Source: Rhyzopertha dominica
Lineage: Eukaryota > Arthropoda > Insecta > Coleoptera > Bostrichidae
NCBI GenBank assembly: GCA_025024175.1
Contig: QCXZ01000041.1
Coordinates: 12,891,786-12,955,785 of the forward strand
Length of the DNA: 64,000 bases
Direction of reading: 5' to 3'
The translations under genes were made by a program, and so were the position numbers. The notes below the pieces were generated by a model. It was not told the DNA's origin. It worked only from the letters and a program-made list of their open reading frames with translations, and did no database searches. Positions 27,840-62,819 of the stretch are shown here, piece by piece (positions within the stretch are counted from its first letter, which is position 1; each line of letters starts with the position of its first letter).

Positions 27840-28216
27840 AGGGGTCCGCTTGTAGTTTTACTTGATGTGTTCGTATCCTTGTGTGTTGGTGGGACCACCA
27901 CACCCTTGTATTCCAAAACCCCGACGTATGTATGCTGCTTCTAGATGAAAACTCGCTTTGATGAATCTACTGTTAAGATCCCTGCTCCTGGTAGGTGTCT
28001 TGCTAATTTGCTTAACTGAAATGTAGTCTTTAGTGCTAAGCGCTGAAGTTGGGTAAAGGATATATTTGTTAAGCTTGCTGCCTTTTGCTGACTATTTGAA
28101 GGAGAGCTTATTGCCGCTTGATTGGGAATTAGGCTGCTCCTGGGGATGCTTCTAAATGCTGATTTGTGCAGATACCACTGACTGGTTTCGGATATCCGGC
28201 TCGTAATGGACCATTA

Positions 28217-28446
28217 TGTTGGGATTCGCGTTTAGTTTACCAAATACGCTTTCCGCTGGTAATGATGATGAAGTGGACTGTATTTCTTTAATTCTTTTAT
28301 TTCCTTTCTTTATTTACAATTCTATCTTGACATATATCTATTTTTATCAATAATAATTCATTTTTTTTGTTGCTTGGTTTACAAACAGTTTATGTACTGC
28401 ATGCAACATGCATGCAGTGTATTGTATTGGGATGTAATTCCTAACA
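28217..28446 (-). repeat. 5' LTR of BEL/Pao element 1
   Basis: The sequence is 230 bases and is the partner of 22264-22493. On the minus strand the next internal bases are TAA followed by TGGTCCATTACGAGCC, a TGG-initial primer-binding site offset by three bases. Confidence 0.95.
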
Positions 28447-28533: not shown

Positions 28534-28608
28534 GACTTTGGTAGTTCAATGGTTAGCACATTTGACTAATAATCAAAAGGTTCGGGGTTCAAATCCCGAT
28601 CAAAGCCA
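28534..28608 (+). tRNA. tRNA-Ile(AAT)-like sequence
   Basis: An A box (TAGTTCAATGG) and a B box (GGTTCAAATCC) are spaced as in tRNAs. The anticodon arm is a perfect 5-bp stem TTTGA/TCAAA enclosing CTAATAA, giving anticodon AAT with T33 and A37. This is the same loop as eukaryotic tRNA-Ile(AAT). The acceptor pairs GACTTTG with CAAAGCC, with one A-C mismatch. The T arm pairs TCGGG with CCCGA but has one base too many. A run of seven T residues (28615-28621) could end Pol III transcription. The acceptor mismatch and T-arm irregularity leave open a pseudogene or a SINE head. Confidence 0.5.
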
Positions 28609-31602: not shown

Positions 31603-32051
31603 TGTTTCGCGGCACACGTGAAATTTTAGTTAATTAACACCCTTCGACGGTGTACCGCGTGATTTTCTCATAAATTAAACACTTTCGGACTTACTAACCA
31701 TATATTCACTAATTCTTACAATACTTCTTAACTAAGTCTATTCTAACATACAACGTCTTACATTCCCGCGTTACTTTACAATACTTATTGTCATTCGNTC
31801 TGTACCTAGGTATTTATACTAGCCTACCCCCAACCCCTTGAAAGAATCCCGTTACACAGTACAAAAGGGACGGATCTTGGAAATTCCCAATGTAAAATTA
31901 TGATATAACAACTGTCGCCCACCCCTTTGTGGTTCACAGATAATGGGCAATAAAATATTATTGCGGTTTACTGGAAAGGCCTAATCGTTTACCTACTACC
32001 TCAATTTGGAATTTCCAACTATAACCCGGAGGGTATTGCAAACTAAAAACA
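31603..32051 (-). repeat. 3' LTR of BEL/Pao element 2
   Basis: The sequence is 449 bases and contains the ambiguous base at 31799. Small differences from the right copy are visible in the ACTTATTG and TTCACAGATAATGG stretches. Confidence 0.93.
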
Positions 32052-32183
32052 CTCCCCGCCTTGAAAGCTTTGACTTTCAAAACCATACATTAACTTGTAC
32101 TTATTGTCTTCATAGGTTATAGCCTAAATATTGCTTATTTACTGTCTTGTAACACTAACACATGACAGTCCACTTGCACTTTT

Positions 32184-36173: not shown

Positions 36174-37315
36174 TGAATGATGTTTTTGTTACAGCAACGA
36201 CATTTACCTGCGAAACACTTATAAGCCGTATGATTTGGCTTAAAACAATTAACGCACAATTTGCGACCCTGCACCTCACGCCACCTTTGCTCTACAGGTA
36301 GATTAATAAATCGGTCACATTGCTTTAAGTTGTGTGCTTGATTGCATAACATGCAACTCGGCGTCTTCGCAGCCGCGCTGGTAGCCACTATACTCTTTCG
36401 ATTTTGATGTTGAACTCGATTATAACTTTCGGGGCTCCTTTTATCACTTACAGATTCCAGTGTTTGGCATTTGTGCTCCAAAAAATCAAGCATATCACTT
36501 AGTTTGGGATGTTCCTTCGACAATTGGTTTTCCCACTCCTTGCACGTAAATTGATCCAATTTAGTAGTGATCAAGTAAATTATGAGATCATCCCAAAAAT
36601 CTGTTGGACGTTTAAGAGCCGTAAGAGCTTGTAAATGTTTTCGCGTGTCGCCTACAATTTTTCTCAATGTTGTAAATGACTCTTTTGAGGACGATGGCAT
36701 ATCAAAGAGTGCACGAATATGATTTTTTGCAATAATTCTTTGATTATCGTAGCGAGCCTTCAACAAATTCCATGCGACGTTATAATTTTCTGCGGAAGTT
36801 TCGAGCGAATCTAAGACACATTTTGCTTCACCTTGTAGAGCAGATTTTAAATAATGGAACTTTTGTATGTTCGTTATATCTGTGTTGGCATCAATAAGGC
36901 TTTGAAATGTGTCAAAAAATGGAAACCACTGATCATATGCTCCACTAAAACTTGGGAGGTCAATCCGAGGAAGTCGTATTTGCGAATGGAGAGATTCCTG
37001 CCGTGATTGTTGATCAGAAGTTTTATTCGCCGCTATTATATCCTTTGCAGCTGCAATGCTATTAAAATACAGCGTTTCAAAGGCTTCTCTGTTATTGGAT
37101 TCTTGGCCTCTATCTTCTATGAAATTCTCTATTTGATCTTGAATTTCATCGAATTTATCCCACAACGGCAAGATTTTAGATAAGCGTTCTTCTACATTTC
37201 TTATGCTAATCTTTTCTTTACCTTCAAGCGAATCAACGTGCTTTTGAAAACGATCTACTGCATCTAAGTATTTATCACGTTTGCTTATGAGAGTTTTTAA
37301 TTCCGGTGCGGGCAT
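36149..37315 (-). CDS. BEL/Pao Gag-like ORF, 388 aa (frame ends early)
   Basis: The frame starts at an ATG (MPAPELKTLIS) 203 bases inside the 5' LTR. It has a coiled-coil-like N-terminal stretch and a DUF1759-type gag domain at about 115-290 (LPSFSGAYDQWFPFFDTF). Zinc knuckles follow (CMLCNQAHNLKQC, CVNCFKPNHTAYKC, then CRCCNK). Directly after CRCCNK the frame runs into a short unrelated tail (IIHCCIWITP) and stops, whereas the family normally continues with an HH.LLH motif. That motif is present in the next frame, so the stop is due to a one-base offset. In element 1 gag and pol are a single frame, so this is more likely a mutation than a normal stop. Confidence 0.9.
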   Translation of the reverse strand: MPAPELKTLISKRDKYLDAVDRFQKHVDSLEGKEKISIRNVEERLSKILPLWDKFDEIQDQIENFIEDRGQESNNREAFETLYFNSIAAAKDIIAANKTSDQQSRQESLHSQIRLPRIDLPSFSGAYDQWFPFFDTFQSLIDANTDITNIQKFHYLKSALQGEAKCVLDSLETSAENYNVAWNLLKARYDNQRIIAKNHIRALFDMPSSSKESFTTLRKIVGDTRKHLQALTALKRPTDFWDDLIIYLITTKLDQFTCKEWENQLSKEHPKLSDMLDFLEHKCQTLESVSDKRSPESYNRVQHQNRKSIVATSAAAKTPSCMLCNQAHNLKQCDRFINLPVEQRWREVQGRKLCVNCFKPNHTAYKCFAGKCRCCNKNIIHCCIWITP

Positions 37316-37500
37316 TTCGGCGCAGTATTATTATTAATGGGGAAAGTAAATAGACTCACCAATGTGCTGCCTTGCTGAGCATCAAAGAAGGTAGTTGTAT
37401 AGTGAAGTTTTTCTGGAGGTCTTCTAATGTTCCGGCCGTCGAAAACGTTGTTTTCCAGAAGTTTGCGGATGAAGAGCTTCTTCCAGGACTTGCTAGTAAG

Positions 37501-37518
37501 ATCCGGCCCGAAGGACCA
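37501..37518 (-). promoter_or_regulatory. Primer-binding site, tRNA-Tyr type
   Basis: On the minus strand the bases directly after the 5' LTR are TGGTCCTTCGGGCCGGAT. They are complementary to the conserved 3' end of eukaryotic tRNA-Tyr (acceptor CGAAGGA plus CCA, then the CCGG T-stem). This site would prime minus-strand DNA synthesis. Identity to the host tRNA is from memory of the conserved tRNA, not a comparison. Confidence 0.75.
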
Positions 37519-37967
37519 TGTTTCGCGGCACACGTGAAATTTTAGTTAATTAACACCCTTCGACGGTGTACCGCGTGATTTTCTCATAAATTAAACACTT
37601 TCGGACTTACTAACCATATATTCACTAATTCTTACAATACTTCTTAACTAAGTCTATTCTAACATACAACGTCTTACATTCCCGCGTTACTTTACAATAC
37701 TGATTGTCATTCGCTCTGTACCTAGGTATTTATACTAGCCTACCCCCAACCCCTTGAAAGAATCCCGTTACACAGTACAAAAGGGACGGATCTTGGAAAT
37801 TCCCAATGTAAAATTATGATATAACAACTGTCGCCCACCCCTTTGTGGTTTACAGATAACGGGCAATAAAATATTATTGCGGTTTACTGGAAAGGCCTAA
37901 TCGTTTACCTACTACCTCAATTTGGAATTTCCAACTATAACCCGGAGGGTATTGCAAACTAAAAACA
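37519..37967 (-). repeat. 5' LTR of BEL/Pao element 2
   Basis: The sequence is 449 bases and is the partner of 31603-32051. It would drive transcription leftward through gag and pol. Confidence 0.93.
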
Positions 37968-42104: not shown

Positions 42105-43675
42105 ATTGGAGGAGTCAGAGGAGAACAGTGCAATATTATTTTGATTTTTTTATAAGATTCTATATAAGAAAAATGTTAAAAATGCATATAACTGCTGTCA
42201 ATCATTATCAACCTGCGCCATATTTTGGCAAAATATTTCAATTTTTTTAATTTTTGGTGTGATAAAACATAAGTAAGTACTGTGCTAGTTTTATTACTAC
42301 AGAATAGTCAGTCGAAGAGGTATTGTTTTCAGATTTTTAAATTTGAGAGATCTTAACGAAAAAAATTATCAAAAGCCATATTATTCATGTGTATTGCAAG
42401 CGCAAATCACCGATCACAGAGCAGTTAGGACTTTAAGTATCATGATGCGTGTCTCGAATCCAACTTTTACAGGCACTATATCATTCAAATCATAAGTGTA
42501 GACCATTTAGCCGCAACCAACGTCACGTTGCCCAAAGGTGCGCCATAAGGAGGCAGTCTACATTGCATCGCTTTTTATATATTTTATGCTTTATAAATTC
42601 ATAATTTTGAGATATGTGTTGTATCTACATGAAAAAAGAAATTGTCTGAGAATGTCTAGATGCCACCTAGCGAAAACCTGAGGTTATCAACGGACGGATT
42701 GGCGAACGATAAATCGGGCACGTAAGTGGTCCCACCCTAAGTGGGTTGCGCTAAAAATTCAAAAACGGTAAATATCACTTAATATGACAATTCCTGTGAC
42801 CCATTGATACTTTATAATATTGATACAACTGGTCACGAAAATTTCATTCAAACTTGCAAATCGGGACGCACTCATTTGTAAGTTTAATCTAATATTCTCT
42901 TTAAAATTATTCCTACTGATTATAACCTGTAAAGTAGTTAGAATATTATGAAATTGATGAAACTAGTTTATTGGGTAATCAATTATCATTATAAGAAATT
43001 TTTGGGTCAAATTAAATAAGTATGGGTTATCATATGCACAAATAGCTGTTGCCCGCGGCATTGCTCGCGTAGGAGATCGCATATGTCACATATCAAATAT
43101 CCAAATCAAAATACTTTGAAACAAAAGCTAGATATAAATTACTGATATAATTTTTAATTAAATATTGTGTATACTTCGTAAACAATGCTCATACGCATCC
43201 CCATTTTTCCCCCTGGGGATGATATTTCCAGAAAAAAAAAACCAGTGAAACAGTAAATACACGTATTACCTTCTCGCCAAATGCCTGAGTATAAAACTTT
43301 ATCTTGACTTATTATTATTGCTTTAAAAATAACAGAAATCATATACGAATTTTCATGGCTCTTAGGAGTGTAATTTCTGAAACAATTAAGTAGGTGAGCA
43401 TTAATTTCTTGGCGATCGACTTATCAGACATGACATTCTGGACTTGCAAATGCAAATCACTTGTTAAATCACCGATTGGTGATTCTGTTGAAGTAGCGAT
43501 TACATTATTGTGTGGAGTAAACGTGTAAACGTTATTTTCGAAATGTTGAGGAACAATTTGCACGAAGGACTACTGTAAAACATAGGAAAGTATAGGTATA
43601 TGTTTCAGGTTAGAAGGGGTAGATCATGCTGTTGCCGTTAAGGAATTGAATGTAATGGAAGAGGAAGATCATATA
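42105..43675. other. Intergenic DNA, no gene recognised
   Basis: If the exon at 41499-41966 is real, its first exon should lie here on the minus strand, but I could not identify it. At about 43045 TGTTGCCCGCGGCATTGCTC resembles a motif I associate with dispersed insect repeats. Nothing else is recognisable. Confidence 0.35.
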
Positions 43676-44304
43676 TACAGAGTGGTCCAAGTGAACGTAT
43701 TTCTTCCATAACTCCACAACTATTGAAAATATGAAAAACTTTTTTATATAAAAGTGATCCAGTTTTATATGCTGCATCCGGTTATACCGGAAACGCATAC
43801 CAGCTTCCTTATTTTAAATAGAACACCCCGTATATTTTTGCATTCCTTGTTGAATTCTAAGGTTATTTTGTATAACATAGCATACCTCTAAAATGTACAG
43901 TTTTCGACAAAATAAGTGCTAAAGCAAAAAATCGCTCCCCGCCATTTTAAATATCTTCCAATATGAGACACCTAGAAGACTGCGGTTTGCGCGCCGCGTA
44001 AGTTAAGAAAATGGCCTATCATTTGCGTCTTCAAGCAGGTTTATTACTTTTAAATTGAAAGTAATATATCATCAATTGCCATATGAAATATTTCATTCTG
44101 CGATAAGTCAATTTTTAAATGGAACATGCAACTTTTTTACACCATCGGATGCAAAATTAAATTATCTTTAATTCGATATCAGATTGTCACTATCTATTAC
44201 TAACAGTTTTGCAACAATTTGCGTTTTTCTGATTTTTTAGATTAAAGACGCTTATATCAGTTACGCCTTGACAAGACCTGGGAGGCGGCAAAATATCGGC
44301 GCTG

Positions 44305-44540
44305 GCTCCGAAATGTGAGCTTCTGCAACCTTAAAGTTAATTATCTCACAAAACACTACAAAATATGTTGAAAATGCACACTCACGTTTAGGAGCTGTGG
44401 GGTAACATTGATGTGCAACCTCCACTACTATCGCCGTGCATATTGTAGATTGGCAGCAGTTACAATAAGGCGGCACAAAGAATTCAACAATTAACGCCGC
44501 CCGCGTTGCATGAATCATTTGCAGAAACCCTGTATTTGAA
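44305..44540. repeat. CAGGGTTYCT-family copy in the centre of the foldback element
   Basis: This copy shares blocks with 40757-40965 and 38540-39220, ending GCATGAATCATTTGCAGAAA followed by CCCTGT. It sits between the arms of the foldback element, either as an insertion or as part of its core. Confidence 0.65.
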
Positions 44541-45085
44541 TAAACTGTGCTAAAATTCACCAAAGGCCAGCGCTGACATTTTGCCGCCTCGCAGGTCTTG
44601 CCAAGGCGTACCTGATATAAGCGATTTTAATCTAAAAAATCAGAAACACGCAAATTGTTGCAAAACTGTTAGTAATAGATAGTGACAATCTGATATCAAA
44701 TTAAAGATAATTAATTTTGCATCCGATGGTGCAAAAAAAAGTGCAAAAAATTGATTTATCGCAGTTTGAAATATTTAATATGACAACTGATGTATTACTT
44801 TCAATTTAAAAGTAATAAACCTGCTTGAAGACCCAAATGGTATCTAATATTGGAAGATAATTAAAACGGCGGGGAGCGCTGCAAACGACGCTTTTTTCTT
44901 TAGCGCTTATTTTCTCGAAAACTGTACATTTTAGAGGTATAGTATGTTATACAAAATAACCTTAGAATTCAAAAAGGAGTGCAAAAATGTAAAAATATAC
45001 AGGGTGTTCTATTTAAAATAAGGAAGTTGGTATGCGTTTCCGGTATAACCGGAAGTGAACGGTTATCAATATGCAGCACATAAAA

Positions 45086-45091
45086 CTGGAT
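45086..45091. repeat. 6-bp target-site duplication, left (CTGGAT)
   Basis: CTGGAT directly precedes AGTAGGGGG. The same six bases follow CCCCCTACT at 58119-58124. The inverted arm of the host foldback at 43755-43765 shows the uninterrupted site with a single copy (its complement ATCCAG), confirming the duplication. Confidence 0.93.
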
Positions 45092-45641
45092 AGTAGGGGG
45101 ATGATGAGACTTCTGTATCACTCATTTGCATATTAGCCAGTAGAGGGCGTTTGAGGGCGCAAAATTACGCATTTGCATATTAGTCCAATCGAGCATGTGT
45201 GTAAGTCGCGATCAATCAAAAATTATTTTTAATTTTCGATTACTTTTGCTGAATGTGACGGGATGAGAAATATGACGTTCATACGGTAATTAGCGAATTT
45301 ATTAAGTGTCAATTATTTTTATTCGACTTTTTTGAATTTGGTGTGATGGAATGAGATGTNAACTGTGACTGACATTTGTATTTTATANCAGCATGTTTCT
45401 GACTGAGGCTTTTACGCCCTANTNAGATGGGGGACAATATCAGCGAAGGTGGGTTGCTGATGTGTAATTGATATGAAATATTTATTTGCTATTACCACAT
45501 ATTGCTATTGTATATATATGCATGGCGATATGACCAATGTACTCCTAACCATTGTTATGATATGGTGGGGGTTGGTACCACGGTCCACGCTCTATATATA
45601 GGCAACCCCCAGGACAGGGGTAGGCGGGATTTTTTTACTAT

Positions 45642-45710
45642 GCCGAATGCTGGATTTGAACCCGCTACCTCCGGTATGGCAGTCCAACACCTTACCGCTG
45701 CGCCAAACGC
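45642..45710 (-). repeat. tRNA-like unit, left-arm copy
   Basis: On the minus strand this carries an A-box-like TGGCGCAGCGGTAAGG and a B-box-like GGGTTCAAATCC about 40 bases apart. It is the mirror of 57500-57569, which holds the fuller description. Confidence 0.6.
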
Positions 45711-45945
45711 AAACTTACCTAACCGCCGTTATTCTTGTCTATTTAAGAGTAGGGCCACTCATCAATTTATCATTTTTAAACTGAGATGGGATATTAGGTA
45801 AAACTTACCGCTAAGTCCGCTTAGGGAGCACATTTTGACAGTAAATGGTTAATAATTACCTATGCCCATGTTTTTCTATGGTTTTATACTATTTTTTTTG
45901 TCATATTTCATACAATGGATTTTCGTTATGGCCAGCTGGAGGGTT

Positions 45946-46545
45946 TCAATGATTATCAGTTATCTGGAATAAGAATAAACAAATTAATATTAAGAGTATT
46001 CATAGATTTGAACCGTGATTTTGTGGCAAAACCTCAAATAACGGTTACAGCGCGACTTAATTGAGCTAAATAACTGTCATTTCACAACCTAGGCTAATCC
46101 ACAGCAGGTTTGCGATTTCTTAAAAAAATGCACTAAATAAGAATGTAAAGCCACCAGCATGCAATGATTATCAGTTATCTGGAATAAGAATAAGCAAATT
46201 AATATTTATTAAGAGTATTCATAGATTTGAACCGTGATTGTGTGGCAAAAACATCAAATAACGGTTACAGCACGACTTAATTGAGCTAAATAACTGTCAT
46301 TTCACAACCTAGGCTAATCCACAGCAGGTTTACGATTTCTTTAAAAATGCACTAGATAAGAAATTAAAGCCACCAGCATGCAATGATTATCAGTTATCTG
46401 GAATGAGAATAAACAAATTAATACTAAGAGTATTCCTAGATTTGAACCGTGATTTTGTGGCAAAAACGTCAAATAACGGTTACAGCACGACTTAATTGAG
46501 CTAAATAACTGTCATTTCACAACCTAGGCTAAACCACAGCAGGTT
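45946..46545 (-). repeat. Three tandem units of about 218 bp with tRNA-like boxes, left arm
   Basis: Mirror of 56666-57263. Each unit, read on the minus strand, has TTTAGCTCAATTAAGTCG and CACGGTTCAAATC. The three copies differ at scattered bases and by small indels. Confidence 0.85.
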
Positions 46546-49500
46546 CAGATAGCTGAGCAAAACGGTGAATATAAGTTTAAAATTACTAAACTAGCATAAA
46601 TCTACGACTGTTAGTCAACTCTGTTTATATAAAAGAATGGATTTCAAGTGATTGAAGTTATATTAGAATAAATGAAATACTTGCTACTATGTCTATTGAG
46701 AGTCATAGAAGGAACAAGCTGAAGACCAAAACACACACGGTAAGAATGTGTTTAAGGCAGGTAAACTAATAAAAAACACACTATACATCGTTGTATATCG
46801 TGATTTTGCTTTTTAACTAGTTTATGCATGCTGATTGTAATAAATAATGTTAAAATTGTCAGCTTTTTTTAACTAATTCTTTTCATCAATAAGCATATAT
46901 TTCATGTAATTGTAAATAAATTGAAATAATATAATTAATTGACTTTTGTTTGTACTTTAATTAAATATAATTCGCATGTCAGTTATCAATCTTGTAGGTT
47001 GAGAAGTTGCTTGTTACCGTCATCTATCATAGCATACAGGATATTTGATGTAATAAATAACAATCAGCTACATGCTACTAGACTAGCAAAAATCTATGAT
47101 TTCCTAAAACCACCTTCGTACTCCATATGTTGTGAACGTAGTCAATTCTGTTTATATAAGAGAATGGATTTCAAGCGATTGAAGTAGAATTAGAATAAAC
47201 GAAATTGTGTTTTCACATCATATGGAACGTTTTAAATATATAAAAAAATTGGCGAGTTTTTTCATTATTTTTGCACTAGATTGCTTAAATTATGCCACTA
47301 CATGTTTTTTTTCTCTAAAATGAGCAATACTCGTACGCTTAACTTGGAAAAAATACTTGCTACTGTGTATGTTGATAATCATAAATGGAGCAAGCTGATG
47401 AAGCACGGTAAAAATGTGTTTAAGACAACTAGACTACTGAAAAATATACTGTGTCGTACTTCGTTGTATATCGTGAATTCCCCTTTTTATTAGTTTCTGC
47501 GTGTTAATTATATTAAATAATGTTAAAATTGCCTGCTTTTTAACTAATTCTGTTCGTCTAAAAGCATATATTTCTTGCGATTGAAGTAATGTACTTAAAT
47601 GAGTATTGTTTGGACTTTAATAAATATAACTGGCATTTATTATATGTTGAGAAGTTTTTTTATTACCGTCATCTATCATAGCATTTAGGGTAATTGACAA
47701 ATAGAAAAATGACGCGATTTCCTTGTTTATCTTCCTAACACTTGCTTATTTAAATTATGACGCAGCATACTTTTTGTCTAATTAGCAGTACATATATCTC
47801 TAAGTAATAACAAGAAGCAAATTGAGAGAGCAGAAGCAAACAGTCGATCAGGAAACGATGAAAATGTGTTTAAAAGAACTAAACTACTCGAAAATCTACT
47901 TCATGATGTGTTATGAATAGTCTCATCAACTAGCAGCCGGTATTGACATTGACTAATGTTTGATTTTAATCAATTCTCTTTCTGTATTTTATGCTCATAT
48001 AGCATATAGAGCGCTTGACATGGATAAAAATATAACAAGATTACCTTGTCATTTTCCCTTACTTATATTGTTACATGTTTCTCTCTATAATATGCTATAC
48101 TTATACAGATCTTAATGATGGTGGGAAAAATACATATTGCTATTATATTCATGTGATAATCTACAACAAACAAATTGATAACCCGAAACATTTGCTGAAT
48201 GAGCATTCTAAATGGTTTCGAACAAGATTGTGACCATAACCAGCTGAATCGGTTGGTTGAAAGGCCGTAATCGAAGACACGGCGAGCTGTAGGGATGGAA
48301 TAGTAGCAGATAATCGCTATAAGGCATTTGCTTTCTAAAGTATTACAATTTATTCATTAACAATATTCCTGTTTAGTACACAGTACACCCCAAATTCCTT
48401 TCAGATATCTCACTTATTATTACAGCAGGAAAAAGTTTGTAAAGGTAAAGATGTGAACTTTAAGACTACTTGCGTTTTTGTTTGTTGAAAATGGACTCGC
48501 ATTGCTTATTCATGTAGGTATTTGAATACTTAGAGCATGTAAATCTAACAAATTGTAGGTAACGTTTTGATACTTACAACCAGGAATATGTAGCATAGCA
48601 TTCAAGAAAAATGTGTTTATCCAGTAAATTCTTGAAAAAGGTGATGAGAAATATAACGGATAGGTATTTGTCGAAAAGTATTCAAACCTGTTTATATATT
48701 ATCATTAAACTAATACTTCCAATAATGAAAGCCTCCTAGTTAGCTCGCATTCCAAGGGGCATTAAACTTCTTATGTTAAACTGACATAAAAGCCTTATAG
48801 TATGTTGTGTGAACGTAATTTCTTGCTATTGCTATTCAAATACTTTAATATGGCGAATTAACCTCTGATTTAGCCAAAAGAATAACTGTAATATATATTT
48901 TATAAGTATTAATACACAGTTTAACATTGAAGTAAATAAGAAATTAATATTTAATTTTCTTGAGGCTATCAAACTGGACAATATCGTGTCCGTTTAATTT
49001 GTCATTCATTTCTACATAGTGGTAGCGAGAGCTATGGGGAAGCTAAAGTAGGTACGCACTGATATTTAAATATGCATACACACGAGCTTTACACAGGAGA
49101 AACATAAGACAACAAGTAGTTTTTATGTGCTTTAGATAACTTTTCATGCCTTTTCTTCCTAAAACTTACACATTTATGCATTATTTGTAAACCCAATGTA
49201 TCGTCACTGAACCCCATTCTAATAGTTAAAGCTAAAAAAACGCTGCCAGTTACCTATTGTATGTCCAGCAGCATTAGTACTATTATGGTTCTAATATAGA
49301 ATAAACAAAAATCAAATAACTACAATAATATATGGCAGATACATTTACTTTCATTTTTAGTGCAGATATTAATGTGATGCCTTCTTCTTCAAATTCTATC
49401 AAATTATCACGTCTTTTTACCAATTAATGGAGATCACTTGAAAAATGTCTACATATTTATTAAAGAAATGAACTTCTGACAAAAAACGGCACCATTAGCT

Positions 49501-50393
49501 ATTTCAAAATCGATGAGCATGTATTACATGATNGAATGATGTTTTGTTCTTTAAAAGCCTCCAAATTTATGAAACAGTAAGTACATAAATCGACAAATTA
49601 GTGTCAAATAAGAAAAATGATCAAATACACCTATATAAAATAAGAAGAATTTGAACAAAAGACGTAACTTTGCGGAGAAAAGCATAATTGATAGGTAATT
49701 TTGTAAATTTATAGAAAATCGTGTATTGTATGTGAAATGCGTAAATCGACAAAATTAAATCAATAAAAATAATGTAAATATGAGCAAAACTTGTTATTAT
49801 GGTTAGTATTTCCTACAGTTATTCAATTTCAGTATAACAAGTTTTATAAATATAAAAATGTTTACTATGGAAAGCATGCCTAAGGAAATTCTCCCTTTCA
49901 CAGCCTACCTTACAGTATATTGCAGAGGGACCCTTCTCACATTAGCCAAAATCAAACATAAATTACTTCTTCTTGTTACCGCCGTATACTACACATTGCT
50001 CTTAATACACCAGGGAAAGCTGTCTTGTTATAATGTAATGATTTTAAATAAGTCAAGAATAACGAAAATTCAGAAGCATAAATAAGTGAAATGTTCTTTT
50101 GACGAAGTTTATTGTCAAGACAAGTACACAAGAGCGTTGTCATTCTAATTACATGGACATTAAAGAGGCGATTTATTATTACCCATAACAGCAGATCTTA
50201 GACAAAAACAACTTGTTCCGAGCTAAAAAGGTCAGCTTTAATGTATTCCGGAAAGATCAGTACCTACATGACTACTTTCATTAGGTGTAAATGTGAACAA
50301 TTCATTTAACAATGTGGGCAAACTCGATCTGAACCTTTATGTTCTTGCTACGGAATGGTATACTTTTTCCATTACCTAGAAGCGTTATTGACT

Positions 50394-52132
50394 TTTTTTT
50401 GCAAATTAAAGCAATAAGGATTCCCACCTGAGACCTAGATTGACATAGTGATATGCACTATATTAACCTTTAACTGCAGGTACAGCTGCATTTCATTCAC
50501 TTAGGAAACTTCAGTACTGCCTCTGATTGGTTATAATGTCAGATATCATTGGTTCCCTCAGTAGGAATGTATTAATCTTAAGTAATTTTAGTTCAAATGT
50601 TAATTAATTCAGTGTGTAACATTTTTAAAACAGGCTTGCTTATATTATTAGATGGATATTGTGCATCTTATGAAGTGTATGACGCACCTGAGTAATAATA
50701 ATAATAACCATGTAGTATGTATAGGGTATAACACTGCGTTCAGCACTTACCAGACTTTTTATTGGATGATAAGGAATAGTTGCTAAAGAACTCAACTGCA
50801 TCATATTATGACAATACTTTTTTAAGGAATTTTAAAATAACTTAAACCATTCATTTTAAAGAGGAACTTGAGACATCGCAAGATTAATATCACAACTGAA
50901 ACCCCTATTATAGATTTATCCCACTTTACTTATATCCACGACATGAAATTTGTTATCTAAGCGTTCTCTACAGGATAATCTTGTTAACAAAAGCGTTTGC
51001 TAGTAATAGCATGCGCCATCCTGAAATCATGTAAGACATCTTAACATAAGTACACCAACATAGACGCTATTGTTAACTTGTAGGTAGTATTTTGCAATAA
51101 TAACTCAGTATTAACACCTTGTGAGGCGAAACCGTTGCAAAAGAAATATTGATATATGCCATTATTCTGCTAATTTACTCTTTCATTTTAGAATTTGGTC
51201 TTATCAATGGGAAGATGTATACCAATGTGTATACTATTGAGCACTCGTAGTTATCTACATATAATCTTTTTTTTGCATTAAATTCTTAGGAAATTATAAA
51301 GGCTCAAATTTATTATATATTATTATTCTGCCATTGCAGATATTTAAAAATAGGTACTTACCACAAAAGAAGTGGAGTTCATATTCAACATTATATGTGC
51401 TCCTTCAACAACTACACCAAAATATAAATATTTTACTACAATTAAGCAGGTTAAAAAGCAATAGCTCATCGAAAATTTAGACTTAATATGAAAAATATCC
51501 ATCATTGTTATGAGACTGGCGTAATTTTATAGAAAGAGAACCACAACCCTGTTGGTATTGGGGGCTCAAAATTCCATGGGGCATGGCGAGATCTTAATTT
51601 CCTTAACGGTTATGATTCTATTGGCATGAAGAATAGGTTATGTAGGCTTCTTATGACTGTCAAAGCTACTTTACCTAAAAGTATAAAAACTCATGATCGT
51701 TTATAGCCAACTAGTCAAATATATTGAGATATTTCACACTTCCCTTGATAGGTAAATTTTATTTTATTACAGAATATTTCTATTACCTCATTAAAACGAT
51801 GTTAAAAATTTAATTATTTAGTTTCATTTTATATATGAGTACTAGAGCTGCTTTGAGATTTGATGTTTTTCTTTCTATAAAGCATGACAGCAACACATAG
51901 ACTGATTTAATACACACAGAAAGTGAAATATTTCGAACAATTTTTTTGCAGTAGCCGTTATTCTAATACCTATCCACATCTTAACCCACATCCCCTCATG
52001 CACAGAACTGGAGCTGTACGAATCGAAAATTTGAGTATTGTGAACATGAACCACATTTAACTGGAATTTATACATTTCTCTCTAGCTTCAAATACAGTTT
52101 TTTCAATACGTATAGCTCCAGTTCTGTGCATG
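50394..52132. other. Central unique segment of the giant-inverted-repeat element
   Basis: The segment is 1,739 bases of AT-rich sequence with no open frame of note. A 66-codon minus-strand frame at 51875-52075 has no recognised domain. A 21-base inverted pair lies at its right edge (51995-52015 and 52114-52134). No polymerase, integrase or other element gene is recognisable. Confidence 0.7.
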
Positions 52133-54185
52133 AGTCAATAACGCTTCTAGGTAATGGAAAAAGTATACCATTCCGTAGCAAGAACATAAAGGTTCAGATC
52201 GAGTTTGCCCACATTGTTAAATGAATTGTTCACATTTACACCTAATGAAAGTAGTCATGTAGGTACTGATCTTTCCGGAATACATTAAAGCTGACTTTTT
52301 TAGCTCGGAACAAGTTGTTTTTGTCTAAGATCTGCTGTTATGGGTAATAATAAATCGCCTCTTTAATGTCCATGTAATTAGAATGACAACGCTCTTGTGT
52401 ACTTGTCTTGACAATAAACTTCGTCAAAAGAACATTTCACTTATTTATGCTTCTGAATTTTCGTTATTCTTGACTTATTTAAAATCATTACATTATAACA
52501 AGACAGCTTTCCCTGGTGTATTAAGAGCAATGTGTAGTATACGGCGGTAACAAGAAGAAGTAATTTATGTTTGATTTTGGCTAATGTGAGAAGGGTCCCT
52601 CTGCAATATACTGTAAGGTAGGCTGTGAAAGGGAGAAATTCCTTAGGCATGCTTTCCATAGTAAACATTTTTATATTTATAAAACTTGTTATACTGAAAT
52701 TGAATAACTGTAGGAAATACTAACCATAATAACAAGTTTTGCTCATATTTACACTATTTTTATTGATTTAATTTTGTCGATTTACGCATTTCACATACAA
52801 TACACGATTTTCTATAAATTTACAAAATTACCTATCAATTATGCTTTTCTCCGCAAAGTTACGTCTTTTGTTCAAATTCTTCTTATTTTATATAGGTGTA
52901 TTTGATCATTTTTCTTATTTGACACTAATTTGTCGATTTATGTACTTACTGTTTCATAAATTTGGAGGCTTTTAAAGAACAAAACATCATTCGATCATGT
53001 AATACATGCTCATCGATTTTGAAATAGCTAATGGTGCCGTTTTTTGTCAGAAGTTCATTTCTTTAATAAATATGTAGACATTTTTCAAGTGATCTCCATT
53101 AATTGGTAAAAAGAGGTCATAATTTGATAGAATTTGAAGAAGAAGGCATCACATTAATATCTGCACTAAAAATGAAAGTAAATGTATCTGCCATATATTA
53201 TTGTAGTTATTTGATTTTTGTTTATTCTATATTAGAACCATAATAGTACTAATGCTGCTGGACATACAATAGGTAACTGGCAGCGTTTTTTTAGCTTTAA
53301 CTATTAGAATGGGGTTCAGTGACGATACATTGGGTTTACAAATAATGCATAAATGTGTAAGTTTTAGGAAGAAAAGACATGAAAAGTTATCTAAAGCACA
53401 TAAAAACTACTTGTTGTCTTATGTTTCTCCTGTGTAAAGCTCGTGTGTATGCATATTTAAATATCAGTGCGTACCTACTTTAGCTTCCCCATAGCTCTCG
53501 CTACCACTATGTAGAAATGAATGACAAATTAAACGGACACGATATTGTCCAGTTTGATAGCCTCAAGAAAATTAAATATTAATTTCTTATTTACTTCAAT
53601 GTTAAACTGTGTATTAATACTTATAAAATATATATTACAGTTATTCTTTTGGCTAAATCAGAGGTTAATTCGCCATATTAAAGTATTTGAATAGCAATAG
53701 CAAGAAATTACGTTCATACAACATACTATAAGGCTTTTATGTCAGTTTAACATAAGAAGTTTAATGCCCCTTGGAATGCGAGCTAACTAGGAGGCTTTCA
53801 TTATTGGAAGTATTAGTTTAATGATAATATATAAACAGGTTTGAATACTTTTCGACAAATACCTATCCGTTATATTTCTCATCACCTTTTTCAAGAATTT
53901 ACTGGATAAACACATTTTTCTTGAATGCTATGCTACATATTCCTGGTTGTAAGTATCAAAACGTTACCTACAATTTGTTAGATTTACATGCTCTAAGTAT
54001 TCAAATACCTACATGAATAAGCAATGCGAGTCCATTTTCAACAAACAAAAACGCAAGTAGTCTTAAAGTTCACATCTTTACCGTTACAAACTTTTTCCTG
54101 CTGTAATAATAAGTGAGATATCTGAAAGGAATTTGGGGTGTACTGTGTACTAAACAGGAATATTGTTAATGAATAAATTGTAATA

Positions 54186-54188
54186 CTT
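54186..54188. repeat. 3-bp target-site duplication (CTT), left
   Basis: CTT precedes TTGTTAAG, and CTT follows CTTAACAA at 54870-54872. The left giant arm carries the unoccupied site as a single copy (TAATACTTTAG in mirror image near 48340). Confidence 0.9.
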
Positions 54189-54869
54189 TTGTTAAGAATT
54201 AATAGACTTTAGTTATTTAAGTTGCCTCTTCTAATCGAGGACCATTTTTTGAGTCATTTTGAGTTTTGTTCGCGATTTAAAATTCGCGTTTTATTATTTA
54301 TATTGTTCGCCCGCCTATGTTCGTTTACACGCGTACGCAGGCGTGTCTTCAAGAAATAGCCAGTACCTAGAAGCCATAGCGATTGGGTACCACGCATGGA
54401 ACCTTCCTCGTGGAAAAGTCGCTTACCGCACTCGCAAAACCGTATCGATCACCGCTTACGTAATAGTCACCGCCAGTTCGCCCGCTTTGACAACGTTGGA
54501 CATTGTTGGATTACAGGTAGGCGAACAATCTTTGTTTTTTGACGAATCTTTTAACCGCAACGAACCAACACCGCCTTTTTTTTATAATTATACAGTCCAT
54601 TTACGTGACATCAAAATTTTGTGGCGACGCGGTAAGCGACTTTTCCACGAGGAAGGTTCCATGCGTGGTACCCAATCGCTATGGCTTCTAGGTACTGGCT
54701 ATTTCTTGAAGACACGCCTGCGTACGCGTGTAAACGAACATAGGCGGGCGAACAATATAAATAATAAAACGCGAATTTTAAATCGCGAACAAAACTCAAA
54801 ATGACTCAAAAAATGGTCCTCGATTAGAAGAGGCAACTTAAATAACTAAAGTCTATTAATTCTTAACAA
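54189..54869. mobile_element. Nested 681-bp element with 241-bp perfect inverted repeats
   Basis: The arms 54189-54429 and 54629-54869 are equal in length and match perfectly by eye. The ends read TTGTTAAGAATTAATAGAC. The 199-base centre has no recognised gene. A 3-bp CTT duplication flanks it, and the opposite giant arm shows the exact empty site, so both ends are certain. Three-base duplications occur in PIF/Harbinger, CACTA-type and a few other DNA-transposon superfamilies. CTT is not the usual Harbinger TWA, so I leave the superfamily open. The open frames at 54259-54804 (+) and 54611-54799 (-) start identically only because they lie in the inverted repeats. Confidence 0.93.
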
Positions 54870-56665
54870 CTTTAGAAAGCAAATGCCTTATAGCGATTAT
54901 CTGCTACTATTCCATCCCTACAGCTCGCCGTGTCTTCGATTACGGCCTTTCAACCAACCGATTCAGCTGGTTATGGTCACAATCTTGTTCGAAACCATTT
55001 AGAATGCTCATTCAGCAAATGTTTCGGGTTATCAATTTGTTTGTTGTAGATTATCACATGAATATAATAGCAATATGTATTTTTCCCACCATCATTAAGA
55101 TCTGTATAAGTATAGCATATTATAGAGAGAAACATGTAACAATATAAGTAAGGGAAAATGACAAGGTAATCTTGTTATATTTTTATCCATGTCAAGCGCT
55201 CTATATGCTATATGAGCATAAAATACAGAAAGAGAATTGATTAAAATCAAACATTAGTCAATGTCAATACCGGCTGCTAGTTGATGAGACTATTCATAAC
55301 ACATCATGAAGTAGATTTTCGAGTAGTTTAGTTCTTTTAAACACATTTTCATCGTTCCTGATCGACTGTTTGCTTCTGCTCTCTCAATTTGCTTCTTGTT
55401 ATTACTTAGAGATATATGTACTGCTAATTAGACAAAAAGTATGCTGCGTCATAATTTAAATAAGCAAGTGTTAGGAAGATTAACAAGGAAATCGCGTCAT
55501 TTTTCTATTTGTCAATTACCCTAAATGCTATGATAGATGACGGTAATAAGCAACTTCTCAACATATAATAAATGCCAGTTATATTTATTAAAGTCCAAAC
55601 AATACTCATTTAAGTACATTACTTCAATCGCAAGAAATATATGCTTTTAGACGAACAGAATTAGTTAAAAAGCAGGCAATTTTAACATTATTTAATATAA
55701 TTAACACGCAGAAACTAATAAAAAGGGGAATTCACGATATACAACGAAGTACGACACAGTATATTTTTCAGTAGTCTAGTTGTCTTAAACACATTTTTAC
55801 CGTGCTTCATCAGCTTGCTCCATTTATGATTATCAACATACACAGTAGCAAGTATTTTTTCCAAGTTAAGCGTACGAGTATTGCTCATTTTAGAGAAAAA
55901 AAAACATGTAGTGGCATAATTTAAGCAATCTAGTGCAAAAATAATGAAAAAACTCGCCAATTTTTTTATATATTTAAAACGTTCCATATGATGTGAAAAC
56001 ACAATTTCGTTTATTCTAATTCTACTTCAATCGCTTGAAATCCATTCTCTTATATAAACAGAATTGACTACGTTCACAACATATGGAGTACGAAGGTGGT
56101 TTTAGGAAATCATAGATTTTTGCTAGTCTAGTAGCATGTAGCTGATTGTTATTTATTACATCAAATATCCTGTATGCTATGATAGATGACGGTAACAAGC
56201 AACTTCTCAACCTACAAGATTGATAACTGACATGCGAATTATATTTAATTAAAGTACAAACAAAAGTCAATTAATTATATTATTTCAATTTATTTACAAT
56301 TACATGAAATATATGCTTATTGATGAAAAGAATTAGTTAAAAAAAGCTGACAATTTTAACATTATTTATTACAATCAGCATGCATAAACTAGTTAAAAAG
56401 CAAAATCACGATATACAACGATGTATAGTGTGTTTTTTATTAGTTTACCTGCCTTAAACACATTCTTACCGTGTGTGTTTTGGTCTTCAGCTTGTTCCTT
56501 CTATGACTCTCAATAGACATAGTAGCAAGTATTTCATTTATTCTAATATAACTTCAATCACTTGAAATCCATTCTTTTATATAAACAGAGTTGACTAACA
56601 GTCGTAGATTTATGCTAGTTTAGTAATTTTAAACTTATATTCACCGTTTTGCTCAGCTATCTGAA

Positions 56666-57263
56666 CCTGCTGTGGTTTAGCCTAGGTTGTGAAATGACAG
56701 TTATTTAGCTCAATTAAGTCGTGCTGTAACCGTTATTTGACGTTTTTGCCACAAAATCACGGTTCAAATCTAGGAATACTCTTAGTATTAATTTGTTTAT
56801 TCTCATTCCAGATAACTGATAATCATTGCATGCTGGTGGCTTTAATTTCTTATCTAGTGCATTTTTAAAGAAATCGTAAACCTGCTGTGGATTAGCCTAG
56901 GTTGTGAAATGACAGTTATTTAGCTCAATTAAGTCGTGCTGTAACCGTTATTTGATGTTTTTGCCACACAATCACGGTTCAAATCTATGAATACTCTTAA
57001 TAAATATTAATTTGCTTATTCTTATTCCAGATAACTGATAATCATTGCATTCTGGTNGCTTTACATTCTTATTTAGTGCATTTTTTTAAGAANTCGCAAA
57101 CCTGCTGTGGATTAGCCTAGGTTGTGAAATGACAGTTATTTAGCTCAATTAAGTCGCGCTGTAACCGTTATTTGAGGTTTTTGCCACAAAATCACGGTTC
57201 AAATCTATGAATACTCTTAATATTAATTTGTTTATTCTTATTCCAGATAACTGATAATCATTG
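56666..57263 (+). repeat. Three tandem units of about 218 bp with tRNA-like boxes, right arm
   Basis: The unit starts CCTGCTGTGG(T/A)TTAGCC at 56666, 56881 and 57101. The third copy is cut short at 57263. Each contains an A-box-like TTTAGCTCAATTAAG and, about 48 bases on, a B-box-like CGGTTCAAATC. This spacing is within the range for internal Pol III promoters. Whether they are active is unknown. Confidence 0.85.
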
Positions 57264-57499
57264 AAACCCTCCAGCTGGCCACAACGAAAATCCATTGTAT
57301 GAAATATGACAAAAAAAATAGTATAAAACCATAGAAAAACATGGGCATAGGTAATTATTAACCATTTACTGTCAAAATGTGCTCCCTAAGCGGACTTAGC
57401 GGTAAGTTTTACCTAATATCCCATCTCAGTTTAAAAATGATAAATTGATGAGTGGCCCTACTCTTAAATAGACAAGAATAACGGCGGTTAGGTAAGTTT

Positions 57500-57569
57500 G
57501 CGTTTGGCGCAGCGGTAAGGTGTTGGACTGCCATACCGGAGGTAGCGGGTTCAAATCCAGCATTCGGCA
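57500..57569 (+). repeat. tRNA-like unit, right-arm copy
   Basis: GCGTTTGGCGCAGCGGTAAGG supplies an A-box-like start and GCGGGTTCAAATCC a B box, with a T stem GCGGG/CCAGC that pairs except for one position. The 5' and 3' ends do not form an acceptor stem and the anticodon arm is weak, so this is not a functional tRNA. It looks like the tRNA-derived head of a SINE or a captured Pol III promoter. No T-run terminator follows closely. Confidence 0.6.
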
Positions 57570-58205
57570 TAGTAAAAAAATCCCGCCTACCCCTGTCCTG
57601 GGGGTTGCCTATATATAGAGCGTGGACCGTGGTACCAACCCCCACCATATCATAACAATGGTTAGGAGTACATTGGTCATATCGCCATGCATATATATAC
57701 AATAGCAATATGTGGTAATAGCAAATAAATATTTCATATCAATTACACATCAGCAACCCACCTTCGCTGATATTGTCCCCCATCTCATTAGGGCGTAAAA
57801 GCCTCAGTCAGAAACACGCTGCTATAAAATACAAATGTCAGTCACAGTTCACATCTCATTCCATCACACCAAATTCAAAAAAGTCGAATAAAAATAATTG
57901 ACACTTAATAAATTCGCTAATTACCGTATGAACGTCATATTTCTCATCCCGTCACATTCAGCAAAAGTAATCGAAAATTAAAAATAATTTTTGATTGATC
58001 GCGACTTACACACATGCTCGATTGGACTAATATGCAAATGCGTAATTTTGCGCCCTCAAACGCCCTCTACTGGCTAATATGCAAATGAGTGATACAGAAG
58101 TCTCATCATCCCCCTACTCTGGATCACTTTTATATAAAAAAGTTTTTCATATTTTCAATAGTTGTGAAGTTATGGAAGAAATACGTTCACTTGGCCCACC
58201 CTGTA

Positions 58206-60578
58206 TAGTTTGATTGCGCTGAAATTTAACGCAAATTATGAAGTATACAGACACTTACAAAACCCTTAAAAACATACTTCGAAATGATGAAAATTACTCG
58301 GCAGAAGGCTCAGAAAGCTATGAAAGAAAAGAAAATAAAGATGGAAAAAATAAAAACTTGTCATCAATAATACAAAAAGCAGCCTAATTATATTAAAGCG
58401 GATAATATACCTATTTATCATAAAATAGAGCAGTTTAGATTTTAAAAAAGATGAAGGTGGTATTAGAACCTGTCAAATTTGCTATATGATTCTAAATTGC
58501 CTTGATGAATAGATTCCAATAAACCTAATTTCAAGGACGATGTAATGTGCGCACCATGAAAGAAGGCTGGTGTGGTGGGGATAAAAATTNGCGCCTNATT
58601 CATGGTCGCAATTTCACCCACACGTTTCGTTCCGTTCAAATTGAGGGCGATGTTCCATTCCTAAAGTGGAACTTCCTTCCTGGCGCGCACTATATGCCCG
58701 AAAATACCAAAGGGTTTACTTCGTTCTACGTTTTCACTCTTAATGTGGAATTATTTTGTTGCTTGGCTTAGATGGACTGCTAATTAAAGGATTGGAAACA
58801 TCTCAATAATCCGAAGGATGACAACACTACCACTTCAACGATGCTTGCTGCAGCTATAAATTTTCTTTCCTGTAAGCTTGTTTGCATCCTTCCTATCTTT
58901 TATCAGATTAATTACCAACCAATTTCCAAAAAAAATTCCACTAGACCATAGTTACGTTTATTTAGATTATAGTAACTAGCAGTCCGTCTCCTAACTCGCT
59001 GAATTGCGCAATAGTGGTAATTACCACGAAAATCACTTAAAGTAATAAGTTACAAGCTCATAATGAATTGTGTGAAATATGTAACCTTCCAGAAGCAACT
59101 TGAGAATACGGTGGACATTCAGCACATATGACGCTCAACAGACCGTGAAGTATTTAATTAGGAAAATTAAGCTACACTTGTAGTATTAAACCCTTATTAT
59201 CCAATTGTGTTCATGTGACACTGATGTTTAAAGATTAAAGGAACACAACATATGTTGAAAATTTCCGAAACGCGTGTTTTACAAATTAACAGCCACAATA
59301 ATTTAGAAATGAATAAGGTTTCTCAAACTACTGCTTCTATTCTATTTTTTAATGGATATATATGTACGAAATATGCTTCTCTTTGTTGCATATTTACATA
59401 AACATTAAGGAACCCAACAGAGGTATTCAGTAAACAGCTATCCATCACCAGTTGCTACAAAATATTATGAACACACGATGTTATTTCCATGCACTCTACT
59501 TAAAATATGATTTAGTTTCATGAAGCCAATTCAGTAACAACGGGACCATGAAAACTATAGTTCAGGCACATTTTAGTTGCTTGAATCAATAGAATAACGT
59601 TGATGTAAGGAGGTGTGTTAAATGGAAACGACAGAGTAAACATTGATTATATTCATAGTCGGCTTAAACTAATAATACAGTTGCCAAAAATGAAAGTTAA
59701 AAAAACAGCTAGCGCTTATTGCCTCTCAAAAATAATAAATAATACTCGCAAAGCATACGATACTACAGGTTCAGTTGCCACACAAGTACGAACTCAATTT
59801 TATGCGATAAGTAGAAAGATTGTGATCCCTAATAATATTTCCTCCATAAATTAGTTATTGAATATAGAACTAAATTAGCACATGTATATCACACATTTTT
59901 ATAACTACAACTCACCCTACAGTTCATTAGGATTTCCAGCCCCTATAACTCACCATCCACCATCACCAGATCTCCAATCTTTATTTTTTTCTACCAAGAA
60001 CAGTGTGACTCAACTACTACGTTAAAACTAATCTCCCTGTGGTTTTCTTTTGATTGATTCCGAACTACAGTGACAACGACAGAAGGCAGTGCGTGAAATC
60101 TTGTTTCAATTACTGATAGCTTGTAGTCTCTCAATTGAATGATTATATAATTACGACCGATTCCATGACGTTGCTATTTCAGAAGCTCAATTCTGGAAAT
60201 TCGAAGGTAAACAAACAATTGCTCATCTGTTCACAGAATTTGCCAATGTCTAGCAACACAGGGAATCTATAAAATATAAGAATACGCCTAAAATTTAAAA
60301 AAAAATAAAGCTTTTTGCATTTTATCGCATATATAGCTTAGCAAGAAATACCTAATATTTCTTATGAAAAGTATATCTTAACAGCATAAAATAAAATAAT
60401 TGATATTAATCGTGAAATATGGTGACGAAGAACTCTATAGATCGAGGATTCGTCTTAATTGAAACTATCCGTTTGTGTAATTGACCTTCACTACATTAAA
60501 AGAGGATTTCATCCGGAAAAGCGTTTTAATAAATAATGTTGAATGGATTAAAAGGTGCATTCATTGTCAAACATCCTG
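58206..60578. other. Intergenic DNA, no gene recognised
   Basis: AT-rich. The plus-strand frames at 58547-58771 (two ambiguous bases) and 59615-59854 have no recognised domain and no splice or poly(A) support. Confidence 0.4.
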
Positions 60579-61373: not shown

Positions 61374-62666
61374 TTATTGTTTCCCAAAGTTATAATTAAT
61401 TGTGCAATTGTTGCAAGTCATAGTGATCGTTGCACCCGATGTGTTGGTTAGAGCTGTATTTGGTAAATTGATAACCGTATTATGCAGAGTACTGGTTTCA
61501 TTAGTGTTTTTAGGTGGAACTCTTAGCGGTGAAGATGAGGTTGATGTAACTGCAGCCGATGAGAGTAAACACTGTGACTCAGCTGATAAAGCCACGGAAG
61601 TTGAAGATGTAGAAGGCCCTTGGAGCATATCTGCGATTGACCTTTTGAGTACCAGTGACTCCTCAATGTAACCTTCTGCTACCGTTGCAGATCTCCAACC
61701 TCCATGTTGTTTTAGTTGTAGTGTGTTACCGCCACTAGCCGCTAAAATAGTGGCAGAAGTTCTTCGAAAGCAATGACCAGTGAAGGAACTAGGATCTGCC
61801 AAATTCAGGAAGGTTGCAATTTTATTAGGCATTTGTGCAATTGTATTATGCCCAATATACTGCCTTGTAGCTTTTCCATTTCTAATCCCAACAAATAATC
61901 GAGGTAAGTTTACATGTGATCTGCATTTTAAATATTTCTTTATAATTTCAATCCACAGAGCGTCTGTGACAACAAATTTTCGTGAAGATCCATTTTTACT
62001 CTGACGAATATTTATAACAATTATGTCACCTTTATCCACAACATCCGTCATTAGCAAATTGCAGAGTTCGTCTCCGCGGCAAGCCCCCGCAACACCTATT
62101 ACAAGAACTGCCTGTAATTAAGGAATATCTATGTATTAATATCAATAAACAATGTGATGTAAACGTGTACTTACTTTAATCGCGAGGTAAAGGTCGTCAG
62201 CCGCATGCGTTAAAAATTTTGTAATGTCTTCTTTTGAAAACACAGAGGACTTTTTTGGTGTATAATTCTTATTTTGCCTTTTTAGATAACCGATTAATTT
62301 AAAAAATTTCGAAATGTCAATGTTTTCTTTAAGCTTAATAGTGGCTTTCAACATGGAATAGTGCGCCCATAGAGTAGATGCCTTTTTATCATTCGCGTAT
62401 TCATTGAAATACGCTAGAAGTACGTTTTCACTAATTCCACCAGCGCCTTTACTTACACACCAATGTTTAAAAGTTTCGTAAGTTTTCAAATACACGCTTT
62501 TGGACTTTTGAGGCAGTAGTTCGTCGTTTAACTGCTCTGCAGCTTCCCGCATTTCAGGCGGTGTACAATTAATTTCTAACATATCCATATTGGAAGGAAA
62601 CACCCAAACACGATAATTACAAACGTTGTAACACAGAGATAAGTTCTTATTTGTGCGTTGTGTCAA
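61374..62666 (-). CDS. Crypton-type tyrosine recombinase, two exons, apparently intact
   Basis: Exon 1 is 62175-62666 (start possibly ATG 62588 instead) and exon 2 is 61374-62111. They are joined across a 63-base GT-AG intron (GTAAGT...TTACAG) in phase 0, giving 409 residues from the first ATG. An N-terminal helical core-binding domain (SKSVYLKTYETFKHWC) is followed by the catalytic domain. All the expected residues are visible: Arg in GACRGDEL (about 176), a Lys in the hairpin (QSKNGSS, about 203), HxxR in GHCFRRTSAT (His 277, Arg 280), His in HGGWRS (about 300) and the Tyr nucleophile in AEGYIEES (about 312). A Ser/Thr-rich tail ends NCTINYNFG. Such proteins are encoded by insect Crypton elements and by genes domesticated from them. 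Cryptons lack terminal repeats, so element boundaries cannot be drawn. The alternative is a host gene of Crypton origin. Confidence 0.85.
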
Positions 62667-62819
62667 AAATAAATTTGATTAGTGGAAATGTCAACTGCAT
62701 CAGACTACTTGATTTTTTGTTTTATTAGTGGAAAAGCGAATTTGCATTTTTGTACTACACTTGATTTTTACAAGAATTTTTTTATCTTTTGCTTTAAATT
62801 TGGCTAGTAGTGGAAAAAG

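Follow-up and report, generated by a model that had tools for sequence, protein, structure and literature searches.

A multicopy palindromic element with Polinton-type ends in the genome of Rhyzopertha dominica, a probable hairpin-copied satellite of Polinton/Maverick elements

Results

A palindromic element and its insertion site

The 64,000-nucleotide stretch of Rhyzopertha dominica DNA analysed here (the window; contig QCXZ01000041.1 of assembly GCA_025024175.1, positions 12,891,786 to 12,955,785) contains a large palindromic element at 45092..58118, which comes to approximately 12.3 kb once a later insertion of 681 bp is subtracted. The sequence AGTAGGGGGATGATGAGAC is read inward at both 45092 and 58118, with no third occurrence within the window, and the element ends are AGTAG...CTACT. 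A first-pass annotation, made from the sequence letters, had described an element with 5.3-kb terminal inverted repeats, AG...CT ends, arms of 5,302 bases interrupted by a later insertion and a duplicated CTGGAT at its flanks, and all of these features are confirmed. The left arm (45092..50393, plus strand), in which no coding was found, is 5,302 bases long, whilst the right arm (52133..58118, minus strand) is broken by the insertion at 54189..54869. This insertion has 241-bp perfect inverted ends, reading TTGTTAAG, and a duplication of its own that is readable as 3 to 5 bp; it is present in the right arm only and is foreign to the family described below. The outer arm pair (45092-48341/54869-58118) is 99.51% identical, with 12 mismatches (six involving N) and 4 gaps, and the inner arm pair (48337-50393/52133-54189) is 99.56% identical, with nine mismatches (one involving N). 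In total, the 21 mismatches, seven of which involve N, leave 14 substitutions between arms that are approximately 99.5% identical.

The first-pass annotation had also regarded the 1.74-kb centre (50394..52132, plus strand) as unique. It is indeed single in the window copy, but other copies hold most of it in both arms (e.g. L013, L019, L024), and a patchwork of arm sequence makes up its last ~80 bases. This patchwork junction (52053..52134) is made up of three short pieces of the inner arm, as would be expected for the loss of a palindrome centre, and we take it to mark the place where that centre was lost. Within the arms, a tRNA-like stretch on the minus strand (45561..45760), presumably related to short interspersed elements to judge from the look of its A- and B-box motifs alone, has a mirror copy on the plus strand at 57450..57649. 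Each of the 16 other loci tested has the stretch, which is mirrored in all five copies that were read on both sides (the window copy, C136:64.49, C137:3.33, C3:16.43 and C64:3.90). A subterminal tandem array of about 215 bp x 2.8 (45947..46545, plus strand) is likewise mirrored, at 56664..57263 on the minus strand.

The target duplication CTGGAT lies at 45086..45091 and 58119..58124, both on the plus strand. The element inserted into an older palindromic repeat, which extends over 43668..45091 and resumes at 58119-58214, whose own arms are ~89-95% alike and whose ends resemble CAGRGTGGKCCAAGTGAACG. The other arm of this older repeat reads ...AAAACTGGATCACTTTT... with a single CTGGAT, and therefore provides an empty-site control inside the window itself.

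A multicopy family in the same genome

The window's own assembly (479 Mb, 138 contigs) was searched for further copies. The first 300 bases, the query that the first-pass annotation had proposed, gave at least 60 matches, most of them in plus/minus pairs (best 40 of 107 candidates scored); at least 42 matches were obtained with the distal arm (best 40 of 76 candidates scored), and at least 91 with a 2.9-kb arm piece from another copy (best 40 of 93 candidates scored). Two 24-base end patterns located 38 and 22 ends, respectively, and reversed control patterns had 0 matches. Pairing by position yielded 26 pairs and 8 single ends; the same end variant was present on both sides in 26/26 of the paired elements, and no two single ends were near enough to make a mixed-variant pair. 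The arm queries also matched 23 of these 26 pairs, giving at least 23 paired copies, and a 47-base end search added three more equal-end pairs (C3:26.1, C53:22.1 and C136:24.3 Mb). Searches beyond this genome gave 0 matches in viral contigs, where one exact pattern was used, and no match in phage records.

Both junctions were read in 17 other copies, each of which is flanked by a perfect 6-bp duplication; all 17 duplications are different, as would be expected of the independent insertions that the first-pass annotation had called for; a right end without a left partner (L066, C136:16.56 Mb) was left out of all duplication counts. The ends are AGTAG..CTACT in the window copy and in 17/17 of these copies, and read AGTAGG or AGTAGA rather than the strict (AGT)2 motif. 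In all 17 the end variant is alike on both sides, one copy having 1 mismatch in the first 24 bases. An extra subterminal stretch of ~0.2-0.3 kb, present in 15/17 copies, is lacking in the window copy, C41:36.90 and C136:64.49.

A near-perfect palindrome as the complete form

We examined the centres of twelve other copies and ten left halves. Five centres are gapless (L019, L024, L026, L027 and L031). At C136:65.37, 129 bases lie between inverted arms (99.6%), and the two ends lie 8,743 and 8,744 bases from the axis, for a total of 17,488 bp; at C136:81.92 the inverted match is continuous (98.8%), with halves of 8,414 and 8,424 bases (16,840 bp); and at C3:14.62 the arms are separated by 97 bases, with halves of 8,819 and 8,833 bases (17,653 bp). 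These three gapless copies are thus symmetric to within 1-14 bases, as judged from end positions, paired arm matches and centres, the outer arms having been read on both sides in some of the copies. The other two gapless copies are lopsided, with halves of 8,568 and 10,456 bases at C41:36.90 (19,025 bp) and 9,356 and 8,385 bases at C136:18.05 (17,742 bp). Loops and turning points appear to vary among copies. When complete, the element is a near-perfect palindrome whose halves measure about 8.4-8.8 kb; the window copy is a centre-deleted derivative of it.

The two arms of a copy resemble each other far more closely than they resemble the arms of other copies. Over ~900 bases of the inner arm in 12 copies, counting substitutions only, the within-copy difference is 0.0% in eight copies and reaches a maximum of 0.78%, the remaining within-copy differences being insertions or deletions, whilst the left arms of different copies lie a median of 7.0% apart (66 pairs, range 0.0 to 10.0%). 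The arm nearest to the left arm is the copy's own right arm in 10/12 copies. The near-identity of the arms in each copy suggests that recent insertions were born with identical arms. The one-armed insertion and the one-sided loss of the centre in the window copy indicate that a change acquired by one arm once the copy is integrated is not simply transferred to the other. These observations favour a homogenisation that precedes integration and might, for instance, take place in a hairpin.

No recognisable genes in the window element

The longest open frame in 45092-52200 encodes 109 amino acids, which is within shuffle expectation (median 91, 95th percentile 123). Translation of 45092-52132 in all six frames, with X in place of stop codons, gave zero Pfam matches, and the three plus-strand frames gave zero PHROGs matches. 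The absence of recognisable Polinton genes from the window element, as reported in the first-pass annotation, thus stands, and the set of genes that an autonomous Polinton holds inside the element (PolB, integrase, ATPase and capsid genes) was not found in it. Open frames of at least 150 amino acids are absent from the centres of the 12 other copies, and among the ten left halves occur at two loci: a frame of 151 amino acids at L027, inside a ~960-base stretch that is missing from the window arm, and one of 169 amino acids at L034, past a gap and past the matching arm. A tblastn comparison with 25 open reading frames of L035, L036, L045 and L046 (the last lying outside a Polinton) gave nothing better than E 0.1. 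The possibility that the arm consists of decayed genes of the partly read L035-type Polinton, described below, was rejected, since the comparison found nothing better than E 0.1 at the protein level and nothing at E 0.01 at the DNA level.

Gene-bearing elements with the same ends

The same genome contains Polintons of several PolB lineages, with at least 64 matches to the Polinton-type PolB domain PF03175 (best 91 of 106 candidates scored) and 31 genome-wide matches to the A32-type packaging ATPase domain PF04665 (68/68 candidates scored). Three of these 31 ATPase matches fall inside elements that have the ends of the palindromic family on both sides: C64:43056366-43074462 (ATPase offset 12,286, with a PolB match at 43065062, E 1e-6), C64:58920422-58938926 (ATPase offset 12,683) and C1:8328768-8346876 (ATPase offset 12,285), which has the window's own end variant. 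The three ATPase-bearing elements, 18.1-18.5 kb in size, coincide with the only three position-paired elements, out of 26, that lack an arm-query match, and the chance expectation is 0.03 ATPase matches over all 26. The C1 element agrees with the window end at 24/24 bases, and at 45/47 of the first bases at both ends (left terminus, 45092..45138, plus strand; right terminus, 58072..58118, minus strand, mirroring the left). The end variants of the three elements differ from one another, and all of them recur in the palindromic copies; we regard these elements as candidate helpers. Each has one ATPase match, and not two mirrored ones, which indicates that this region is not palindromic there. 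For comparison, the three symmetric palindromic copies are 16.8-17.7 kb long. Near the ends of the window element, ATTTGCAT octamers at 45124, 45171 and the mirror positions make up 4/9 of the window's total, and the first of them (45124) is also present in the end of the C1 element; the terminal 400 bases of the L035-type Polinton have none. Adenovirus origins include such octamers (NFIII/Oct-1 sites), and we claim no function for them here.

A second, partly read Polinton family (L035-L044) has a PolB that matches PF03175 at 3.2e-31 and whose named relatives come nearly all from beetles and other insects. These relatives by themselves would point to an insect, perhaps a beetle, as the host, although elements of this sort can pass from species to species. 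Its outer end is AGTAGT...ACTACT (AGTAGTTATACC), with the boundary at L035:4227 in six of nine pairwise comparisons, at 4228 in two and at 4232 in one; the string AGTAGGGGGG was rejected as an end of this family, since it was present in seven of ten loci and these seven share the same outside bases. Six of its 16 end pairs are 16.2-18.2 kb apart, and the other ten fall outside this range (1.0-23.7 kb). We rejected this family as the partner of the palindromic elements because its ends (AGTAGTTATACC) have only AGTAG in common with theirs. As a separate observation, opposed L035-type ends lie close together at C1:42643004-42644016 (1.0 kb) and C45:1882307-1884877 (2.6 kb), and these may be miniature deletion derivatives of this second family.

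Other features of the window

The window contains two BEL/Pao retrotransposons with long terminal repeats (LTRs). The first (22264-28446) has 230-bp LTRs that are 100% identical and one open frame of 1,750 amino acids with Peptidase_A17 and RVT_1 domains, rve being just below the cut-off; its identical LTRs and open frame indicate a very recent insertion. A tRNA-Ile (AAT) gene lies just outside it at 28534-28608. The second (31603-37967) has 449-bp LTRs, 99.1% identical, and two long coding frames. Tyrosine-recombinase domains (PF00589; PF13495 below the cut-off) occur in minus-strand frames at 61374-62678, which we take to be Crypton-like and which lie 3 kb from the palindromic element, and a 118-bp tandem array of 4.6 copies with 89% matches is present at 18415-18954.

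Discussion

A probable satellite of Polinton/Maverick elements

The palindromic element of R. dominica belongs to a multicopy family with 6-bp target duplications, near-identical arms and ends in common with elements that carry an ATPase and, in one case, a PolB. In our judgement it is probably a non-autonomous satellite, copied through a hairpin, of a Polinton/Maverick lineage residing in the same genome. The first-pass annotation had left the choice between an undescribed type of DNA transposon and a non-autonomous satellite of Polintons with an unusual replication or fold-back history, and the independent duplications, together with the ends common to the ATPase- and PolB-bearing elements, support the latter. 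It had also pointed to Polintons sharing the element's ends as the partners to look for, and the three candidate helpers, recognised by their ends and by these domain matches, answer to that description; there was no autonomous partner from a different superfamily among the gene-bearing partners found.

We propose the following series of steps, in which mobilisation in trans, the hairpin intermediate and any packaging are inferred. A complete satellite consists of two gene-free units of ~8.4-8.8 kb, joined head to head by a short loop and bearing a Polinton terminus at each outer end. Because the satellite carries their ends, helper proteins (a protein-primed PolB, an integrase, perhaps a capsid and packaging ATPase) could act on it in trans. 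Polymerases of this class are established to displace single strands when replication is protein-primed from such ends, and a strand displaced from a palindrome would pair with itself as a long hairpin that has only one open Polinton end. A full palindrome with equal arms would then be restored either by synthesis that is primed at this open end and continues through the loop or by mismatch repair of the stem, and the resulting ~17-kb duplex would be inserted by the helper integrase with a 6-bp duplication. Insertion by the partner's integrase, suggested by the common ends and the 6-bp duplications, is the most certain of these steps. After integration the arms would drift apart, and the centre may be lost, as in the window copy. 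Such hairpin copying would account for the variation in loops and for the mirrored tRNA-like stretch, as well as for the equality of end variants and of arms within a copy. More speculatively, packaging may be the reason why complete satellites and Polintons are of similar length (about 17-18 kb).

Several observations weigh against this proposal. The candidate helpers are known from their ends, their ATPase matches and one PolB match, their integrase, capsid genes and target duplications being putative; two of the three have no PolB match (PF03175, best 91 of 106 candidates), and the absence of the arms from them is provisional, the best 40 candidates having been scored in each arm search. 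The best-read Polinton of the genome, that of the L035 family, has different ends, with similarity to the satellite limited to AGTAG. A 100-N scaffold gap is present in 10/12 of the centres fetched first, so that many inner structures are incompletely resolved, although the gaps are plausibly themselves a consequence of the palindrome, and the assembled end-to-end length of the 23 satellite pairs ranges from 6.8 to 67.5 kb. In the arm comparison, the own right arm of C41:8.92 ties with another copy, and that of C53:24.58 is second (0.33%, against 0.00% to C41:8.92). Furthermore, the likeness of the arms could come from gene conversion on the chromosome or from polishing reads shared between the arms.

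Gene conversion forms the basis of the strongest alternative, in which the element is likewise a Polinton satellite but its palindrome is passive: a single founding fold-back would have been copied and integrated as a linear duplex ever since, with chromosomal gene conversion keeping the arms alike. Long inverted repeats can, as is well established, convert each other, and the copies compared have one overall layout. Nevertheless, neither the 681-bp insertion nor the loss of the centre in the window copy has been transferred to the other arm, and the turning point appears to vary among copies. We therefore give this alternative a minority share of the probability, roughly a third of that of the hairpin-copied satellite. 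Considerably less probable is an independent non-autonomous transposon of another superfamily that makes 6-bp duplications (IS3EU/GingerRoot, Ginger, Dada or a new one). IS3EU/GingerRoot is indeed credited with 6-bp duplications, but with TA..TA and occasionally TG..CA ends (PMC10045372), whereas the ends here are AGTAG..CTACT and have 45/47 bases in common with an ATPase-bearing 18.1-kb element. Lastly, false palindromes joined by the assembler, which the 100-N gaps in 10/12 centres and the extra mirrored blocks beside the gap in some copies (L013, L014) might suggest, are very improbable, and we rejected them in view of the different flanks with a matching duplication at both ends in 17/17 copies read, the 14 substitutions and one-armed insertion that distinguish the window arms, and the five gapless centres.

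A broader and more tentative picture can also be drawn, which we consider possible but rather doubtful. The family would be a gene-free, genome-sized palindromic satellite of an animal virus, replicated as a giant hairpin from one helper origin and packaged in the helper's capsid, with exchange of end variants and possible interference with the helper, like that of defective interfering genomes.

Comparison with known systems and significance

We found no palindromic or satellite-like Polinton derivative in the literature searched, which excluded most subscription papers and repeat databases, so that a prior entry is possible. A multicopy satellite with little beyond Polinton ends would narrow down which ends suffice for replication and integration, and would provide indirect evidence for hairpin-capable, single-stranded replication intermediates. 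Its helper-like length offers a testable hint of packaging; Polintons are regarded as integrated viruses, but Maverick particles are reported as not observed (PMC8097293). The satellite is also a natural source of near-perfect inverted repeats of ~8.7 kb in an animal chromosome, which bears on genome stability and on the production of double-stranded RNA.

Vertebrate Mavericks are described as having 6-bp duplications and ends of (AGT)2, (AG)3 or (AC)3A, most commonly (AGT)2//(ACT)2; their inverted repeats measure 46-1,447 bp, with a mean of 402 bp, and intact elements are 12.7-24.6 kb long (mean 16.9 kb) (PMC8097293). The satellite resembles autonomous Polinton/Maverick elements in its 6-bp duplications, AGT-based ends, overall size and ends in common with ATPase-bearing elements. 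It differs from them in that no genes were found in it by the searches above, and in its inverted repeats of 5.3 kb in the window copy and ~8.4-8.8 kb in the complete form, against the 46-1,447 bp of vertebrates. Duplications of 6 bp are listed for Polinton and usually also for IS3EU/GingerRoot (PMC10045372), and it is the AG..CT ends, rather than TA..TA or TG..CA, that set the satellite apart from the latter. Among foldback elements, Galileo is described as having long, internally repetitive inverted arms and belonging to the P superfamily (PMC3573991), and Tetris is named as a foldback transposon (PMC4079207). The satellite shares the long inverted arms of such elements (Galileo), but its 6-bp duplications and Polinton ends point elsewhere. 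FB is a further element of the foldback type. The snap-back or copy-back defective genomes of adenoviruses and parvoviruses, and rolling-hairpin replication, are systems in which palindromic genomes are formed and renewed via a hairpin. These genomes are extrachromosomal, whereas the palindrome of R. dominica is a genomic family with duplications of the integrase type.

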